Assembly (NCBI GenBank): GCA_903881475.1 | Contig: CAIRTK010000014.1 | Coordinates: forward strand, 1 to 41,905 | Source: an uncultured Opitutia bacterium | GTDB lineage: Bacteria; Verrucomicrobiota; Verrucomicrobiia; Opitutales; Opitutaceae | Direction of reading: 5' to 3' | Length of the DNA: 41,905 nucleotides | Part shown: positions 3,210 through 40,160 of the stretch, piece by piece | How positions within the stretch are numbered: the first letter of the stretch is position 1 | How the letters are laid out: each line of letters opens with the position of its first letter | Notes under the pieces: generated by a model | Seen by the model: only the letters and a program-made list of their open reading frames with translations | The model's database searches: none | What the model was told of the DNA's origin: nothing | Program-made: the position numbers and the translations under genes

Positions 3210-3313
3210 GTCATTCTGAGCGCAGCGAAAAATCCAGACTTAGCCTAGCGACCGGGTCCAAGCGGATATCAAACCAGCCCCAAGCGGCTAGCCTTCGCTG
3301 CGCTCAGAATGAC
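3210..3313. repeat. Dispersed palindrome with perfect 20-bp arms (GTCATTCTGAG family)
   Basis: GTCATTCTGAGCGCAGCGAA at 3210-3229 recurs exactly inverted at 3294-3313, around a 64-nt interior. It fills most of the gap between kbl and cdd. A shorter degenerate relative lies at 6144-6170. Repeats beginning GTCATTCTGAG are, from memory, common between genes in several environmental phyla; no search was done. It could act as a transcript-end hairpin. Confidence 0.8.
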
Positions 3314-8404: not shown

Positions 8405-8452
8405 ATGGGTTTGCATCGTGTGCGGGATGGCTTTCGTGTCGAAGCGATTCCC

Positions 8453-9721
8453 ATGCAGAACCGCTTCTACCACGCCTTTGATACCGAGACCTACGGGGCG
8501 GAGCGCAAGTCGGATTACCGCAGCCCGTTTCAGATCGACCGGGACCGCATCATCCATGCGCACGCCTTCCGCAAGCTCCAGTCGAAGACACAGGTTTTTC
8601 TGTCGGGCGAATACGATTTCTACCGCACGCGGCTGACGCACTCGATGGAAGTGGCGCAGATCGGCCGCTCGATCTGCCATTACCTGCAGTCGCGCGGCGG
8701 GCTGCTGAAGGACGATTTCTTCATCGATGGCGAGCTGGTCGAGGCGGTCTGCCTCGCCCACGACCTGGGTCATCCGCCGTTCGGGCACTCGGGGGAGCGG
8801 ACGCTGCAGGAGCTCATGATCAAGTGGGGCGGGTTCGAGGGCAACGCGCAGACGCTGCGGCTGCTGACGGGGACGATCTACCAGAACGAGACGAGCGTGC
8901 GCGGCATGCAGCCGACGCGGGCGCTGCTCGACGGCGTGCTGAAGTACAAGAAGCTCTTCCGGGAGTTCCCGAAGAAGCCGCAGAACCATTTCCTCTACGA
9001 CGCGCAGGCAGCGGAACGGACCTTTGTCTTCGGCACGGCGAAGATTCCCCGCGAACTGCAGGCGGGTGTAAAACTTAACGCCTTCAAGAGCGTCGAGTGC
9101 CAGATCATGGACTGGGCGGATGACGCGGCGTACTCGCTCAACGACATCGTGGACGGGGTGAAGGCGGGATTCCTGAGCCAGGAGAAGATCGAGGCGTGGG
9201 CCGCGGGCGAGGCGATCGACGCGCAGCAGCAGCAACTGCTCGACATGCTGTTCGACGCGATCCGCAGCGACCGGCTGGAGAGCGTGTTTGCCCAGAAGAT
9301 CGGCGGCTTCATCACCGCGTGCCGGCTGCGGGAGCGGGACAATTTCATGGCGGCGAAGACGAACCGCTACCGGTTCGAGCTGGTGGTGGCGCCGGAGGCG
9401 GAGCGCGAGGCGAAGTTCTTCAAGCGGATGGCGAACGACATCATTTTCGAGAGCCCGCAGCTGCAGCAGATCGAGCACAAGGCGCGGCGGGTGCTGTTCG
9501 ACCTGTGGAATTCCACCTGGAGCAACTACGTCGAGAAGGGCCCGCGCGTGATCAACATCCTGCCGGCGCGCGTCGGCAAGCTGATCGACGCGGCGCCGAC
9601 GACCGCGGGCAAGGCCCGGCAGATCTGCGACTACCTCGCCGGCCTGACCGACGGGATGATCGTCCACACCTACCGCCGGCTGTTCGATCCGGAGTTCGGA
9701 TCGATCCGGGACCTGAGCTGA
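8453..9721 (+). CDS. dgt: Deoxyguanosinetriphosphate triphosphohydrolase-like HD protein
   Basis: This 422-residue HD-domain enzyme hydrolyses dNTPs to nucleosides and triphosphate. Family landmarks are FRKLQSKTQVF, YRTRLTHSMEVAQIGR, the HD box CLAHDLGHPPFGHSGE, and DWADDAAYSLNDI with the final metal ligand. The reading could begin at ATG 8405, but Met 8453 (MQNRFYHAFDTE) is the more natural start for the family. It is transcribed divergently from the S9 peptidase with only 48 bp between the starts, so the two promoters must extend into each other's coding sequence. An HD-domain nucleotidase-like gene lies just beyond, which fits nucleotide-pool maintenance. Confidence 0.92.
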   Translation: MQNRFYHAFDTETYGAERKSDYRSPFQIDRDRIIHAHAFRKLQSKTQVFLSGEYDFYRTRLTHSMEVAQIGRSICHYLQSRGGLLKDDFFIDGELVEAVCLAHDLGHPPFGHSGERTLQELMIKWGGFEGNAQTLRLLTGTIYQNETSVRGMQPTRALLDGVLKYKKLFREFPKKPQNHFLYDAQAAERTFVFGTAKIPRELQAGVKLNAFKSVECQIMDWADDAAYSLNDIVDGVKAGFLSQEKIEAWAAGEAIDAQQQQLLDMLFDAIRSDRLESVFAQKIGGFITACRLRERDNFMAAKTNRYRFELVVAPEAEREAKFFKRMANDIIFESPQLQQIEHKARRVLFDLWNSTWSNYVEKGPRVINILPARVGKLIDAAPTTAGKARQICDYLAGLTDGMIVHTYRRLFDPEFGSIRDLS

Positions 9722-9762: not shown

Positions 9763-9789
9763 GGTAGGGCGCGTTATCCGTAACGCGCC
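9763..9789. repeat. Hairpin starting GGTAGGGCG, after dgt
   Basis: GGCGCGTTA (9768-9776) and TAACGCGCC (9781-9789) form a perfect 9-bp stem with loop TCCG, preceded by GGTAG. The same GGTAGGGCG opening occurs on the minus strand of the element inside mfd (37245-37312). It lies 40 bp after dgt and may act as a transcript-end hairpin. The rest of this 186-bp gap shows only a short direct repeat, TAGGGATA (9862-9869 and 9876-9883). Confidence 0.6.
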
Positions 9790-9907
9790 ACGTTCGGCCG
9801 AGTGACTCCGCAAGCCGTTCCGTTTTTTCAGCTGGACGCCCCGGCCTCACCCGCGGCGGATTAGGGATAGTTCCCTAGGGATAATCTTCCAACAAGATGG
9901 ATCGGAT

Positions 9908-12982: not shown

Positions 12983-13102
12983 TTTTAAACACGGAGGGCA
13001 CAGAGGCCACGGAGGAACCGGCCGGTGAACCAACCGTTCGGAAAGATCGAAAGCCCCAAATGAATCCTCTCTCCGTGGCCTCTGTGCCCTCCGTGTTTAA
13101 AA
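12983..13102. repeat. Perfect 32-bp inverted repeat built of 9-bp units (CACGGAGGG type)
   Basis: The arm at 12983-13014 starts TTTTAAA and runs through the units CACGGAGGG, CACAGAGGC and CACGGAG. The arm at 13071-13102 is its exact reverse complement (32 of 32), around a 56-nt interior. It lies between the convergent prolyl oligopeptidase and outer-membrane factor genes, ending 14 bp before the latter's stop, and could terminate both transcripts. It shares its plan with the elements at 10590 and 20126. Confidence 0.88.
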
Positions 13103-20105: not shown

Positions 20106-20125
20106 CGGGCGTCCTCCGAAAATTT

Positions 20126-20224
20126 AACCACGGATTTCACGGATTCGATCCGGATGGAAAGCAAACCCGAGCCATCGATCCAAAGCATGCGTTTTATCCC
20201 GATCGAATCTGTGAAATCCGTGGT
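20126..20224. repeat. Palindrome of CACGGATTT-type 9-bp units between lysR and serA
   Basis: ACCACGGATTTCACGGAT opens the left arm (core 20127-20150). The inverse arm at 20201-20224 matches 23 of 24 positions across a 50-nt interior. The arm contains two 9-bp units, CACGGATTT and CACGGATTC, and is preceded by TTTAA. It begins 21 bp after the LysR stop, in the 236-bp gap before serA. The remaining gap (20225-20341) holds no feature I can support. Confidence 0.8.
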
Positions 20225-20341
20225 CAAAATATCTGAATTGGCTGGTTCCGTGTCATATCCGCGGCCCGGGTCCCGAGGCGCACCTTGGTTTGAATTGCGT
20301 TTTACGCTCCCGGACTTTTCGCTGCCGGGCATTTTGCCCCC

Positions 20342-30259: not shown

Positions 30260-30339
30260 AAGGTGGAGCGTATTGTCCCCAATGCGTTGGCGCCGCGGCA
30301 CCAAAAACCAAGCGCGTTGAGGGCAACGCGCTCCACCTT
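30260..30339. repeat. Dispersed palindrome, GGTGGAGCG family, between desaturase and cls
   Basis: AAGGTGGAGCG (30260-30270) and its exact inverse (30329-30339) bound the element. An inner hairpin (GCGCGTTG / CAACGCGC, 30312-30319 and 30324-30331) lies at the right end. It is related to 14529-14629, matching 24 of 29 positions at the right end. It fills the middle of the 222-bp gap between two convergent genes, where it could act as a terminator for both. Confidence 0.75.
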
Positions 30340-34034: not shown

Positions 34035-35024
34035 TCAGTAGTGCTTCACGTAGCCGTCGCGCCGCAGGCGCTCGAGCCAGCGCTCTTGGCTGACTTGGGC
34101 CATCTGCTGCACCAGGATGCGCTCAATCTGGTCGCGCACGTCATCCAGCGGCTGAATGCCGGCGAATTTCCGGTCCTCGGCAAACAAGAGATAGCAGCCG
34201 TCGGGGGTGACCACGGGAGCGGAAATCTCGCCCTTCTTGAGGGCGAAGAGCGGTTCGCTGAATTCCGGCTTGAAGTCGGGGCGCTTCGTCCAGCCCCAGT
34301 CGCCGCCCTTGGCGCGGCGTGAGTCCTCGCTGAATTCCTTGGCCAGGTCCTCGAATTTGACGCCGGCATTGAACCGCGCCACCACGACGTCGGCCTTGGC
34401 CCGCAGGGATTCGTCGGTATCGTTCGGTCCGCGTTTGAACTGGATGAGGCGCAGGTGCACGCTGTCCTCCTGGAAGAACCGGTCCTTGTTTTCGCGGTAA
34501 AAGGTCTCGATGCGCACGGGGCTGATGAGCGTCTGGCTCTTCCGCTGCATCTGGCGCATGTAGCCGTAGATGATGTCCTCCTCCACCTCCTTCTTATAGT
34601 CGTTCAGGGTGGTGTTGCGGGAGTGCAGGTAGGCGAGGAATTTGGAGCGGTCGTTGTCGAACTGCTCGGTCTGGATATCCGCGATGCGGCTTTCGACATA
34701 GCTGGCGGGGATGTGTTTTTTCTCGTCCTTCCGGAATTCCTTCACGATCAGCACCCGGTCGATGAGCTGCTGGATGATGTCGTCCTGCAGGGCCTCCAGC
34801 TTTTCGTTGAATTCCTTCTCATTGCGGGCCTCGCGCTGGAGCTGCGGGATCAGGGGCGTGATTTCGCGGCGGACGTCATCCACGGTGATGACCTTGTCCT
34901 CGGCAATGGCCGCAATGCCGTTGGCAAACCTCAGGTTCAGGTTGTCGGGCGGGGTTTGAGCCAGGCCGGCGGAGGTGAATCCGGCGGCGAGCAGGGCGAA
35001 AAGGAAACGACGGCCTGTCATCAT
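34035..35024 (-). CDS. Exported peptidylprolyl isomerase (parvulin/SurA-like)
   Basis: This 329-residue protein has a signal peptide (MMTGRRFLFALLAAGFTSAGLAQ). A SurA-N-like helical chaperone region (about 35-170) includes AEDKVITVDDVRREITPLIP. One parvulin domain (about 188-285) carries the hallmark FSEDSRRAKGGDWGW. It probably assists folding of outer-membrane or periplasmic proteins. SurA usually has two parvulin domains, so this is SurA-like with one. The start codon at 35024 overlaps the Mfd stop (ATGA), indicating translational coupling to mfd. The start 43 codons upstream is rejected because it runs through mfd. Confidence 0.9.
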   Translation of the reverse strand: MMTGRRFLFALLAAGFTSAGLAQTPPDNLNLRFANGIAAIAEDKVITVDDVRREITPLIPQLQREARNEKEFNEKLEALQDDIIQQLIDRVLIVKEFRKDEKKHIPASYVESRIADIQTEQFDNDRSKFLAYLHSRNTTLNDYKKEVEEDIIYGYMRQMQRKSQTLISPVRIETFYRENKDRFFQEDSVHLRLIQFKRGPNDTDESLRAKADVVVARFNAGVKFEDLAKEFSEDSRRAKGGDWGWTKRPDFKPEFSEPLFALKKGEISAPVVTPDGCYLLFAEDRKFAGIQPLDDVRDQIERILVQQMAQVSQERWLERLRRDGYVKHY

Positions 35025-38000
35025 GGAGTGGGCAGATTGTTCAGAAATGAGACGATTTCCCGCAAACGTAGAAGGGGCCCGGGGGCGGTCAACCTTGGAA
35101 ACCGGGTGCCGACCTGCACCCAATCGTCCCGGCGACCGCTGTTTCGCAGGCACTTCAAGCGGCTGGCCTCCGATTCGACGGAGAGGAGTCCCTTTTGTTC
35201 CGCCCTAATCCGGATTTCCGTGACGAGCAGGAGGGCCTTCACTTCCTCGCCGAACTTGCCGAAGCGGTCGCGCAGGTCACCCTCGATCTGCCGGAGGACG
35301 GGCAGGGTATCGGCCATGGCTAGCTTGCGGTAGAAATCGATGCGTAACCGTGTTTCGCCGATGTAGTTGAGGGGGATGCGGGCCTGGATTTTGGGGATCT
35401 CGGCGGCGCCGGCCTCGTCCTCAGCATCCTTGATGGCGGTATACCCATCCTGATGCCGGCCGCGGCTGGATTCGGCCCGGGTGCCGACGGTCTCGCCCAC
35501 GAAGACAAAGTCTAGTTTTACATTGGCGCGGATCGCGGCGGCGGTCTTTTCGCCCTTGAGCCGGGCGACCGACTGGCGGAGCAGCTGGCAGTAGAGCTCG
35601 AATCCCACCCCGACGATATGGCCGCTTTGCTCGGCGCCCAGGAGGTTGCCGGCCCCGCGCAGCTCCAGGTCGCGCATGGCGATCCGGAATCCTGCGCCGA
35701 GCTGGTTGTGCTGCCGCATGGCCGAAAGCCGCTGGCGGGCGATGTCGAGCAGGCGGGTGTGGCGGTGCAGCAGCAGATAGGCGTAGGCCTGGTGCTTGAA
35801 CCGGCCGACGCGGCCCCGGAGCTGGTAGAGCTGGGACAGCCCGAAGCGGTCGGCGCCCTCGATGATGATCGTGTTGCAGTTCGGGATATCGAGCCCGCTC
35901 TCGATGATGGTCGTGCAGACGAGCACCTGGTAACGCCCGGCGACGAACTCGGTCATCACGCGCTCCAGCTCGGCGGCCGCCATCTGCCCGTGGCCCACGC
36001 CGACGGTGAGGTCGGGCATGAGCTGCCGCAGCTGCGCGGCCACAAGGTCGATCGTCTGGACCCGGTTGTGGAGGTAGAAAACCTGCCCACCGCGGCGAAT
36101 TTCGTGGCGCACGGCGTCGACCACGACCTTCTCCTCGTAGGTCTTGACGATGGTCTGGATCGGATGGCGGTTGGTCGGGGCGGTCTCGATCACGCTCAGG
36201 TCGCGCGCCCCGGTCAGGGCCATGTAGAGCGTGCGGGGAATGGGCGTGGCGCTCATCGAGAGCACGTCGACGGTCGCGCGCAGGGCCTTGAAGCGTTCCT
36301 TGTGCTTCACGCCGAAGCGCTGCTCCTCGTCGATCACGACGAGCCCGAGTTCGCGGAACTTCACGTCGGCCTGCAGCAGGCGGTGCGTGCCGATCAGGAT
36401 GTCGACCTGGCCCTCCGCCGTGGCCGCGAGGATCTTGGCCAGCTCGGCGCGAGTGCGGAAGCGGCTGAGCATTTCCACGGCCACGGGGTAGCCGGCCATG
36501 CGCTCGCGAAAGGTGTTCAGGTGCTGCTGCGCCAGCACGGTGGTGGGCACGAGCACGGCGACCTGCCGGCCGCTCTGTACCGCCTTGAAGGCGGCGCGGA
36601 TCGCGACCTCGGTCTTGCCGAAGCCGACGTCGCCGCAGATCAGCCGGTCCATCGGCCGGGTGCGTTCCATGTCGGCCTTGGACTCCTGGATGGCCCGCAG
36701 CTGGTCGCGGGTCTCGGTGAAGGGGAACGACGCCTCGAATTCCTTCTGCCAGGTCGTGTCGGGCGGGAACGCATGGCCAGGCTGCGCCTCGCGTGCGGCA
36801 TGGATCCGCAGCAGCTCGGCGGCGAGGTCGACGGTCGCATGTTCCGCGGCCTTGCGGGCCTTTTCCCAGCGGCCGGAGCCGATCCGGCCCAGTTGCGGGC
36901 GCGTCTTGCCGAGGCCCACGTAGCGGCTGATGAGATGGGATTCCTGCAGCGGCACATGCAGGGTCACATGGTCGTCGAACTCGAGCGAGATGACCTCGCG
37001 CAGGCCCTGGGCGGTGTCGAGCTTGGTCAGGCCGCGGTAGAGCGCGATGCCGTGCTGGAGGTGCACGACGAAGTCGCCCTCGACGAGCTCGGAAAAATCG
37101 AGGAGCTGGTCGATCTGCGCCCGCTGGGCCGTCAGGCGCGGATTGAGGGCCGGCCGGCGCTGGCGCTGGCGGCCGAAGACCTCGGTCTCCGTGACCACGA
37201 CCAGGCCGGCGGCGCCATTGGGAATCGTGGACCATTCCAGAGCAGGCAGGGCGATTCTATCGGATGAACCGTCCGCGGACAGACGCGGCTCATCCGGAGG
37301 ATTCGCCCTACCACCAAATGTGACACGAAACCCCTCATTGAGAGTGCCGCGCAGAAACCGCGGCTTGATGCGCTTCAGGGCGGAATCCCCGGCGAGGATT
37401 TCCTGGATGCGCTGTTCCTCGCCCTCCTTCGAGGCCACCAGCAGGATCGCGTAGCCGGCTTTGCGCCAGTCGGCCACCTGCAGCAGAAACCGATGCCGGG
37501 CCTCCTCCTCGACCTGCAGGCGTTCCTGCGCGAACAGGGCGTCGTCCGGATATGAGCGGTGATGGGCCAGGCTTTCCGTGTCCCAGGTGGCCTCGGTCGC
37601 CCCGTGTTCGAACAAGACACTGGCCTCATCCAGGTCGCTCACGCCGTAGACCGCCGCGCAGCGTGCGAGCAGCGGCGCGAGGGGATCGGTGCCCTCGCGG
37701 GTGAACGCGCCGAATTCCTCATCCAGGGAGGCCGGCTCGATGAACGCGAGGTGCGTGCCGGTGGAGAGGTAGTCGGCCAGGCCGGTGGATGACTCGGCGA
37801 GTTTCACACGCGGCGATGCCGAGAGCGTGATGCTTTCCACCCCGGCGCCGGACCGCTGGGTCACGGGGTCGAATTCGCGGATTTCCTCGAGCTCATCGCC
37901 GAAGAAATCGAGCCGGTAGGGCTGGTTGGCCGTGACGGGATAAACGTCGATGATGCCGCCGCGGATGGCGTAGTGGCCGGGCGCCTCGCAGACGGCCTCG

Positions 38001-38470
38001 GAATCATAGTCGAGCAGCTGGAGTTGCTCGAGCAGCCCGTGGAAGGACTGCTTTTGTCCGCGCTGGAGGATGAGCTCCCGCGTGGAAAATTCTTCCAGGG
38101 CGGGCACGGGCTGGAGCAGGGCGGCGGGCGTCGTGATGACCACGAGCGTGTCCGGTGCGGCGGCCAGGGCGCGGGTGGCCCGCAGGCGGGAGAGCACGGT
38201 GAGGCGGTCGCTGGACGCGGCGAACGCCTCGCGCATGTCACGGCTGTCGGCGAGCGACTCGGGGAACACGAGGGTCTGCAGCGGGCGCGAGCCGCCCGCC
38301 GCGTGATGAAAGAAGGCGACATCCTCGGCGAGGTGCTCCGCGGTCTTCAGATCCTCGGCCACCACGAGCCACACGGGCGCCACCCGGGCGCGCGCCAGCT
38401 CGGCGAGGACCGCGCCGCGGGCGGCGGGGCAGACGCCGGTGAACTTGAATCGCGGGAGGACGGGGGGCAT
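35021..38470 (-). CDS. mfd: Transcription-repair coupling factor
   Basis: This 1149-residue DNA translocase displaces stalled RNA polymerase and recruits UvrA. It has the UvrB-like N-terminal module (GHYAIRGGIIDVYPV), the RNA-polymerase-interaction domain (SELVEGDFVVHLQHGIALYR), and RecG-like motor domains with Walker A GDVGFGKTE (Lys619), DEEQ at 714-717, SMSATPIPRTL, and the TRG-like LELRGAGNLLGAEQSGH. A C-terminal TRCF domain follows. ATG 38470 is preferred over 38524, which starts in repeat sequence. Residues 387-409 are encoded by a palindromic repeat and look like an insertion in the linker before the RNA-polymerase-interaction domain. It is co-transcribed with rnc and the PPIase. Confidence 0.96.
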   Translation of the reverse strand: MPPVLPRFKFTGVCPAARGAVLAELARARVAPVWLVVAEDLKTAEHLAEDVAFFHHAAGGSRPLQTLVFPESLADSRDMREAFAASSDRLTVLSRLRATRALAAAPDTLVVITTPAALLQPVPALEEFSTRELILQRGQKQSFHGLLEQLQLLDYDSEAVCEAPGHYAIRGGIIDVYPVTANQPYRLDFFGDELEEIREFDPVTQRSGAGVESITLSASPRVKLAESSTGLADYLSTGTHLAFIEPASLDEEFGAFTREGTDPLAPLLARCAAVYGVSDLDEASVLFEHGATEATWDTESLAHHRSYPDDALFAQERLQVEEEARHRFLLQVADWRKAGYAILLVASKEGEEQRIQEILAGDSALKRIKPRFLRGTLNEGFRVTFGGRANPPDEPRLSADGSSDRIALPALEWSTIPNGAAGLVVVTETEVFGRQRQRRPALNPRLTAQRAQIDQLLDFSELVEGDFVVHLQHGIALYRGLTKLDTAQGLREVISLEFDDHVTLHVPLQESHLISRYVGLGKTRPQLGRIGSGRWEKARKAAEHATVDLAAELLRIHAAREAQPGHAFPPDTTWQKEFEASFPFTETRDQLRAIQESKADMERTRPMDRLICGDVGFGKTEVAIRAAFKAVQSGRQVAVLVPTTVLAQQHLNTFRERMAGYPVAVEMLSRFRTRAELAKILAATAEGQVDILIGTHRLLQADVKFRELGLVVIDEEQRFGVKHKERFKALRATVDVLSMSATPIPRTLYMALTGARDLSVIETAPTNRHPIQTIVKTYEEKVVVDAVRHEIRRGGQVFYLHNRVQTIDLVAAQLRQLMPDLTVGVGHGQMAAAELERVMTEFVAGRYQVLVCTTIIESGLDIPNCNTIIIEGADRFGLSQLYQLRGRVGRFKHQAYAYLLLHRHTRLLDIARQRLSAMRQHNQLGAGFRIAMRDLELRGAGNLLGAEQSGHIVGVGFELYCQLLRQSVARLKGEKTAAAIRANVKLDFVFVGETVGTRAESSRGRHQDGYTAIKDAEDEAGAAEIPKIQARIPLNYIGETRLRIDFYRKLAMADTLPVLRQIEGDLRDRFGKFGEEVKALLLVTEIRIRAEQKGLLSVESEASRLKCLRNSGRRDDWVQVGTRFPRLTAPGPLLRLREIVSFLNNLPTP
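37245..37312. repeat. Palindromic element inside the mfd coding sequence (GGTAGGGCG family)
   Basis: GGCAGGGCGATTCTATCGG and on to 37271 pairs with the inverse arm at 37286-37312, matching 21 of 27 positions around a 14-nt centre that contains CCGCGG. On the coding strand it begins GGTAGGGCG, the same opening as the hairpin at 9763. It stays in frame and encodes Mfd residues 387-409, a Pro/Asp/Ser-rich stretch. Confidence 0.7.
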
Positions 38471-38476
38471 CAGGAA

Positions 38477-38566
38477 AATCGCGGAAACGCGGAAGAACGG
38501 AAACGCGGAAGCGGACGAAGGCAAAGGCCCATTTCCGGGCTTCCGTCCCTCCGCGTTCCCGTGATT
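38477..38566. repeat. Palindrome of CGCGGAA units between rnc and mfd
   Basis: AATCGCGGAAACGCGGAAG and on to 38503 faces CTTCCGTCCCTCCGCGTTCC through 38566 in inverse orientation, matching 22 of 27 positions around a 36-nt centre. CGCGGAA(A/G) recurs three times in the left arm. The right arm runs into the rnc stop codon (38565-38567). The spacer separates rnc and mfd in an otherwise compact run and resembles the 9-bp-unit palindromes at 10590, 12983 and 20126. Confidence 0.65.
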
Positions 38567-40047: not shown

Positions 40048-40160
40048 GAAGATTTTCGATTTTGGATTCCCGATTTTCGATTTGGCGCAGGCGTGGCGTC
40101 AGGGTGGGGTGAAAGACTTGAGGGGAATTGAAAATCAGGAATCCAAAATCAAAAATTTTC
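40048..40160. repeat. Palindrome of GAAAATC units between the two permease genes
   Basis: GAAGATTTTCGATTTTGG and on to 40078 is repeated inverted at 40130-40160, matching 28 of 31 positions around a 51-nt centre. It fills the whole gap between the permease genes, abutting the stop codon of one (40161-40163) and lying 2 bp from the start of the other. AT-rich arms in a GC-rich genome mark it as distinct from the surrounding genes. Confidence 0.85.

Follow-up and report, generated by a model that had tools for sequence, protein, structure and literature searches.

A REP doublet in frame within mfd of an uncultured Opitutaceae bacterium, and recurrent palindromes among Mfd genes

The mfd gene of an uncultured bacterium of the family Opitutaceae carries, in an open frame, a 68-bp palindrome that belongs to a multicopy repeat family and is an inverted doublet of GTAG-tagged REPs, putatively a REPIN, of the class that we call A. 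The gene lies in a stretch of 41,905 nucleotides, referred to here as the window, and the genome comprises 3.21 Mb in 83 contigs. We consider it very probable that a RAYT-type REPIN entered a loop of the D3 domain of Mfd, where it was tolerated and where it would be read as a disordered passenger loop. The mfd REPIN is a further case of a phenomenon already known; the new parts are the recurrent sites in Mfd and the conservation of the inserts at the level of DNA.

The repeat within mfd and its place in the protein

Taken by itself, the mfd palindrome is weak evidence and is not decisive. Its folding beats that of all 200 dinucleotide shuffles (z -4.2), and its ungapped arm score is 12, a score reached or exceeded by 0 to 4 palindromes in each of ten Markov-shuffled windows. 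Membership of a multicopy family is strong evidence that the element is a repeat, because BLAST of the element against the genome gave 32 matches and the REP pattern of class A gave 38 hits, with none for the reversed pattern. The same pattern search, which allowed up to three mismatches, gave 89 hits for class B and 32 for class C, again with no hits for either reversed control. The sequence-only reading that pointed to the element had its coordinates, its size and the pairing of its arms (21 of 27 positions, counted by eye) right, as it did the in-frame reading from residue 387 onward, numbered from the ATG at 38470. The further genomic copies that it proposed to look for are present, several of them within genes. 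Its claim that this is the sole strong palindrome within a coding sequence holds or fails according to the threshold, and other, weak palindromes lie inside ORFs.

The components of the element are set out in Table 1, together with a single REP elsewhere in the window. The GGTAGGGCG end that the mfd element had been said to share with a hairpin at 9763 is real; the REP found there is of a different class. It lies downstream of an ORF on the plus strand (8405-9721) and is also spanned by a long ORF on the minus strand.

Table 1. Positions in the window of the mfd element, its parts and a further REP
Feature	Position	Strand	Remarks
mfd, transcription-repair coupling factor	35021..38524	-	ORF from TTG 38524; ATG 38470 is the likelier start
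Putative REPIN, class A	37245..37312	-	Two inverted REPs; about 23 in-frame mfd residues (GRANPPDEPRLSADGSSDRIALP)
First REP in the sense of mfd	37286..37312	-	GGTAGGGCGAATCCTCCGGATGAGCCG; class A pattern matched exactly from the second base on
Spacer separating both REPs	37272..37285	-	By eye
Second REP, degenerate, inverted	37245..37271	+	GGCAGGGCGATTCTATCGGATGAACCG; pairs with the first REP at 21 of 27 positions; by eye
Single REP, class B	9764..9790	+	GTAGGGCGCGTTATCCGTAACGCGCCA

Other palindromic features are present in the window. A REP-like, GTGG-tagged inverted doublet (GGTGGAGCG...CGCTCCACC) lies between ORFs at 30260-30339. A palindrome at 38477-38566 crosses the boundary at which the mfd ORF begins (its 5' end) and stops just upstream of the likely ATG; several relatives have similar palindromes at the same place, perhaps a hairpin conserved in the leader, perhaps a further repeat. 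Inverted repeats that are long, seemingly intergenic and have arms scoring 20-27 occur at 3210-3313, 12988-13097, 20123-20228 and 40052-40156.

The ORF was identified as Mfd from its Pfam domains and from solved structures. The insert had been placed just before the RNA-polymerase-interaction domain (RID), in a linker, and this location has to be revised: the Pfam match to the RID starts at residue 481, some 54 residues after the insertion site. In a structure model of residues 300-560 (mean pLDDT 74, pTM 0.54), with which Foldseek retrieved mostly Mfd and CarD-like domains, the insert falls between strands 100-103 and 141-146 and has a pLDDT of 46-47 over most of its length. The model thus points to a loop within the insert-bearing domain, which we take to be D3, and together with the Pfam coordinates it rules out the linker between D3 and the RID as the site. 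The insert is predicted to be read as a disordered extra loop of Mfd.

Most Mfd proteins of the same genus do not carry these residues. In eight of eleven (G001-G005, G007, G010 and G011) the insert is absent and the protein is 16-22 residues shorter at the site, with a linker of 102-120 nt as against 168 nt here. A gap of 23-25 residues had been expected in relatives; the shortening in these eight is somewhat smaller than that, and the other three do not show it. The sister species G008 has a linker of 201 nt with a longer, related element. G009 is of nearly equal length (162 nt) and has its own, different REPIN (TGTAGGGCGGGGTCTCC), partial matches to which occur elsewhere in the G009 genome. 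G006 has a linker of 174 nt, with a long loop that is unrelated to the element and contains no strong palindrome; for this reason loop length alone proves nothing.

REP classes, RAYT genes and other genes with in-frame REPs

Class A REPs are short hairpins tagged with GTAG at one of their ends (GTAGGGCGAATCCTCCGGATGAGCCG and variants). Stem variants that may represent complementary changes, of the forms GAATCC..GGATGAGCC and GAGTCG..CGACGAGCC, were recognized by eye, and the search pattern itself permitted such variants. When up to four mismatches were allowed in the stretches fetched, classes A and B together amounted to 132 REPs in 81 elements, 49 of which were inverted doublets of one class (12 of A, 37 of B). 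The inverted doublet with a short spacer is, therefore, a common form of REP in this genome. Class B doublets measure 78 bp in 20 of 37 cases, and for 29 of 37 the length is divisible by three; 29 of the 37 are also open in the frame that starts with GTA, on either strand, compared with 0 to 4 for each other frame. They therefore represent a ready cassette of 26 codons, a property that may reflect mere recent copying from one source.

Four places in the genome match the RAYT model NF047646. One on contig C11 (90.7 bits, cut-off 80) is located between inverted class C REPs, and a remnant on C69 is located between inverted class B REPs, so that two of the three classes have a REP-flanked RAYT. 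A third, on C1, is preceded by a different hairpin. The RAYT-like gene on C25 (L057:4840-5900; 328 residues) lies between long terminal inverted repeats (GGGGTCAGCCCCTAACTTTTGTGG, by eye) and is like the TIR-associated transposases described in PMC3733652; the surrounding 10 kb contain REPs of neither class A nor class B. At none of the four matches did we find flanking class A REPs.

In total, 106 elements were scored (81 of classes A and B and 25 of class C; some adjoin one another, and 3 of the 32 class C hits were left out), and 16 of them lie in frame in 14 genes, mfd included; this count does not imply that the remainder are intergenic. Besides mfd, the survey of classes A and B yielded genes for an HrpA-type helicase (two sites), the L061 protein, a WD40 protein, a sulfatase and a DUF5054 protein, along with menC, and a SNF2 helicase gene carries both a class B and a class C REP in frame. 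Class C REPs are in frame in genes for a CobW-like protein, two SpoU methylases and an epimerase, and in ftsY and dnaE. Names such as HrpA, FtsY and DnaE are presumptive assignments from Pfam domains. Leaving mfd aside, all of the genes except the L061 ORF have Pfam matches (12 of 13). Not every ORF spanning a REP was accepted as a gene: L046, L053 and L056, which have no Pfam match, and other spanning ORFs were excluded from the 16, as were a DUF58 protein (L279), which has its REP near the C terminus and falls outside the comparison of orthologues, and a second REP of the L005 ORF, which precedes the likely start.

Comparison of lengths with orthologues at the 16 sites revealed at least one relative that is at least 8 residues shorter at 12 of them: mfd, both HrpA-type sites, the second SNF2 site, WD40, menC, L005, sulfatase, cobW, ftsY, spoU2 and epimerase (with one orthologue compared at L005 and two at spoU2). 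The first SNF2 site is mixed, 3 of 10 relatives being shorter and 7 of 10 longer. Since L061 (-3 to +7), dnaE (0 to -5) and spoU1 (0 to -7) show no clear gap, native residues may have been lost to the REP at these three sites. In the sister species the inserts of ftsY, dnaE, WD40, menC, sulfatase and both SpoU genes are present at equal length. At the two HrpA-type sites the sister has class A doublets, compared with a single class A REP at one and a class B doublet at the second in this genome. Several relatives have other kinds of repeat in the same loops (by eye). Repeats of short words (GGGATTTGGGATTTG, ATTGGTCATTGG and others), seemingly in frame too, were seen in the WD40 gene of G010 (L191) and in the Mfd loops of L178 and L150.

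A clean empty intergenic site was not found in G008 at the three L042 loci that were aligned: the class A doublet of the first locus is replaced in the sister species by other sequence, the second locus has a different hairpin there, and the third has a class A doublet in both species. At L042:5458-5535, compared with L320, there is a class B REPIN here and a different hairpin in the sister species, and this intergenic site seems to have been re-used or turned over.

Divergence of the inserts and their recurrence in Mfd

Eight inserts were compared between this genome (G000) and G008, a small sample of 129 codons in which the Mfd pair is a forced alignment. Within the inserts pS was 0.09 and pN 0.087, as against 0.32 and 0.046 in the flanks, giving pN/pS ratios of 0.97 and 0.15, respectively. 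Synonymous differences occurred at 10.0 of 111.4 sites in the inserts versus 915.6 of 2898.7 in the flanks (Fisher p 4e-8), so that synonymous divergence in the inserts is about a quarter of that in the flanks. Hence there is no sign of constraint at the level of protein, and the DNA of the inserts has changed less than the neutral flanks. Such a low synonymous divergence is not predicted by plain descent of a neutral insert; it could be explained by separate insertion, by overwriting from other REP copies or by selection acting on the hairpin.

There is an appreciable possibility, although we lean against it, that the inserts common to both sisters were placed separately after the split or were overwritten by conversion from other REP copies, in which case shared position would not mean shared descent. 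The synonymous deficit argues for this, as do the different REP classes at the second HrpA-type site in the two species and, in the WD40 insert, one paired change that preserves a stem pair of the hairpin. Against it, the edges of the inserts match at the same codons, as does most of the spacer in ftsY and spoU2, for which descent is the simpler account; the deficit itself, moreover, comes from only eight inserts and includes the forced Mfd alignment.

The analysis of Mfd was extended to 80 further loci from named genomes, the best 80 of 557 matches, and compact palindromes scoring at least 14 were sought in a set of 85 distinct Mfd genes (284,271 nt). Thirteen were found, at residues 119-123 (two), 280 (four) and 416-430 (seven), compared with 2, 0 and 3 in three synonymous-codon shuffles of the whole set. 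The seven at residues 416-430 fall in the D3 loop, which accounts for 5,418 nt, or 1.9% of the total sequence. The mfd copy of this genome (score 12) and that of G008 (13.5) are both under the threshold. The loop palindrome of L134, one of the seven, is rich in GC and possibly not a repeat at all, and the four at residue 280, which are in related lineages, may represent fewer events. Carriers of loop palindromes are scattered on the tree, as read without its branch supports. At residue 280, L140 and L153 have class A doublets, with scores of 26 and 27.

A search with a joined query, which left out the loop repeats of L178 and L173, revealed that the loop repeats of L141, L163 and L165 recur in their respective genomes, as do the residue-280 repeats of L140 (L153 sequence), L141 and L153; for L115 and L145 the Mfd copy was the only one among the matches listed. 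These patterns suggest that different repeat families have settled at three spots in Mfd, the D3 loop among them. Under the palindrome threshold, the Mfd loops of L173 and L140 appear by eye to contain REP doublets of mixed type, a class C REP with a class B-like partner in L173 and two GTAG types in L140.

It is also conceivable that REPs insert preferentially into the Mfd loop and the other sites within genes, these being genuine targets, or that the inserts persist because they tune the proteins that carry them (repair or replication factors), but we regard this as improbable. The concentration of 7 of the 13 palindromes in so small a part of the sequence would fit such a view, as would the striking of the second HrpA-type site by different REP classes in two species and the presence of mfd, dnaE and two helicase genes among the 14; indeed, the authors of PMC3733652 doubt that chance led REPs into repair genes. 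On the other side, a pN/pS of about 1 in the inserts, the free variation of loop length and sequence over the family, and the occurrence of REPs in genes for MenC, a sulfatase and a WD40 protein speak against tuning or targeting, and the same clustering is expected from survivor bias towards tolerant loops.

That the insert is a native variable loop of Mfd, palindromic by chance, is scarcely credible: loop length does vary throughout the family, the long G006 loop has no strong palindrome and the arm score of the mfd copy alone is near chance, but this reading is ruled out by the multicopy family with its absence of control hits and by the same-genus relatives without the insert, and it does not account for the class A doublets at another site in the Mfd of two other lineages.

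Origin of the inserts and relation to known systems

The explanation that we favor, entry of a REPIN into mfd, can be set out as a series of steps. REPINs are miniature elements, which a RAYT (REP-associated tyrosine transposase) would move in trans, and this one would most likely have entered mfd in the common ancestor of the source species and G008, inserting in a stop-free phase at the D3 loop. More generally, REPs may insert widely, gene-breaking copies would be lost, and the in-gene copies that survive would be those in variable loops and domain junctions with an open frame. At the D3 loop the insert would be tolerated, translated and neutral for the function of Mfd, its residues forming a passenger without visible constraint at the level of protein while the REP DNA changes more slowly than neutral sequence. 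Because no clean empty site was found at the intergenic loci, transposition is a step that we infer. Several further points weigh against the explanation: a class A RAYT was not found, the long loop of G006 is not explained by REPs, dnaE, spoU1 and L061 show no clear gap, most relatives are longer at the first SNF2 site, and the synonymous divergence of the inserts is lower than that of the flanks.

REPs read within genes have been described before. Di Nocera, De Gregorio and Rocco (2013; PMC3733652) reported GTAG REPs, their dimers and RAYTs, and found intragenic REPs of the GTAG type to be most abundant in Opitutus terrae, a member of the same family; the belief of the sequence-only reading that no such description existed for this group was therefore mistaken. 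The O. terrae REPs resemble those described here in their GTAG or GTGG tag, their hairpin, their head-to-head dimers and their REP-flanked RAYT genes. More than half of the O. terrae inserts are dimers or groups encoding 20-30 residues, and two inserts can occur in one gene, again as here. DNA repair genes and RNA helicases are likewise hit; uvrA and the genes for DNA ligase and RNA helicases are named as targets, and a REP in dnaE of R. conorii is also recorded. One site, in recB, is shared by two Xanthomonas; in other genes of that class the positions of the REPs differ. The present case differs in that mfd is absent from the main text of that paper and a comparison of divergence was not found in the sections of it covered. 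Our literature search on intragenic REPs in this group, on REPs in Mfd and on RAYTs led to PMC3733652 and to nothing later on the group. No earlier report of recurrent Mfd sites, of the ftsY and dnaE cases of this genus or of the divergence pattern was found in the literature searched.

Rickettsia palindromic elements (RPEs) are similar in being palindromic repeats in frame within many conserved genes (PMC10969869, PMC2229807), and the proposal that the mfd repeat, with its copies elsewhere, works like them proved right. PMC3733652 equates the intragenic RPE-4 and RPE-6 with its own CGTC-tagged REPs. The RPEs covered by a review differ in being longer (105-146 bp) and in having another host. 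The REPINs of Pseudomonas fluorescens SBW25 (Bertels and Rainey 2011; PMC3116915) are alike in being inverted REP doublets linked to RAYT genes. They differ in being almost all extragenic, with 14 of 1,067 occurrences of the commonest 16-mers overlapping genes, as compared with the 16 of 106 elements in frame here.

It is tempting to speculate that Mfd of the Opitutaceae provides landing pads for REPs, with unrelated REP families repeatedly entering the D3 loop and two other spots in frame, and that a repeat once inside the gene evolves as a DNA repeat, overwritten or homogenized and with paired changes keeping its hairpin, and not as protein. We hold this to be doubtful. If it were true, there would be genes with short tracts ruled by a transposase system, and repair factors such as Mfd could become evolvable loop by loop.

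Taken together, our findings support the view that REPs, despite a name that calls them extragenic, steadily supply a bacterial family with new protein loops, and do so even in core genes, mfd and ftsY among them. The recurrent sites in Mfd and the comparison with the sister species make it testable whether such inserts are only tolerated, are targeted, or have their DNA held uniform through the action of the transposase system.
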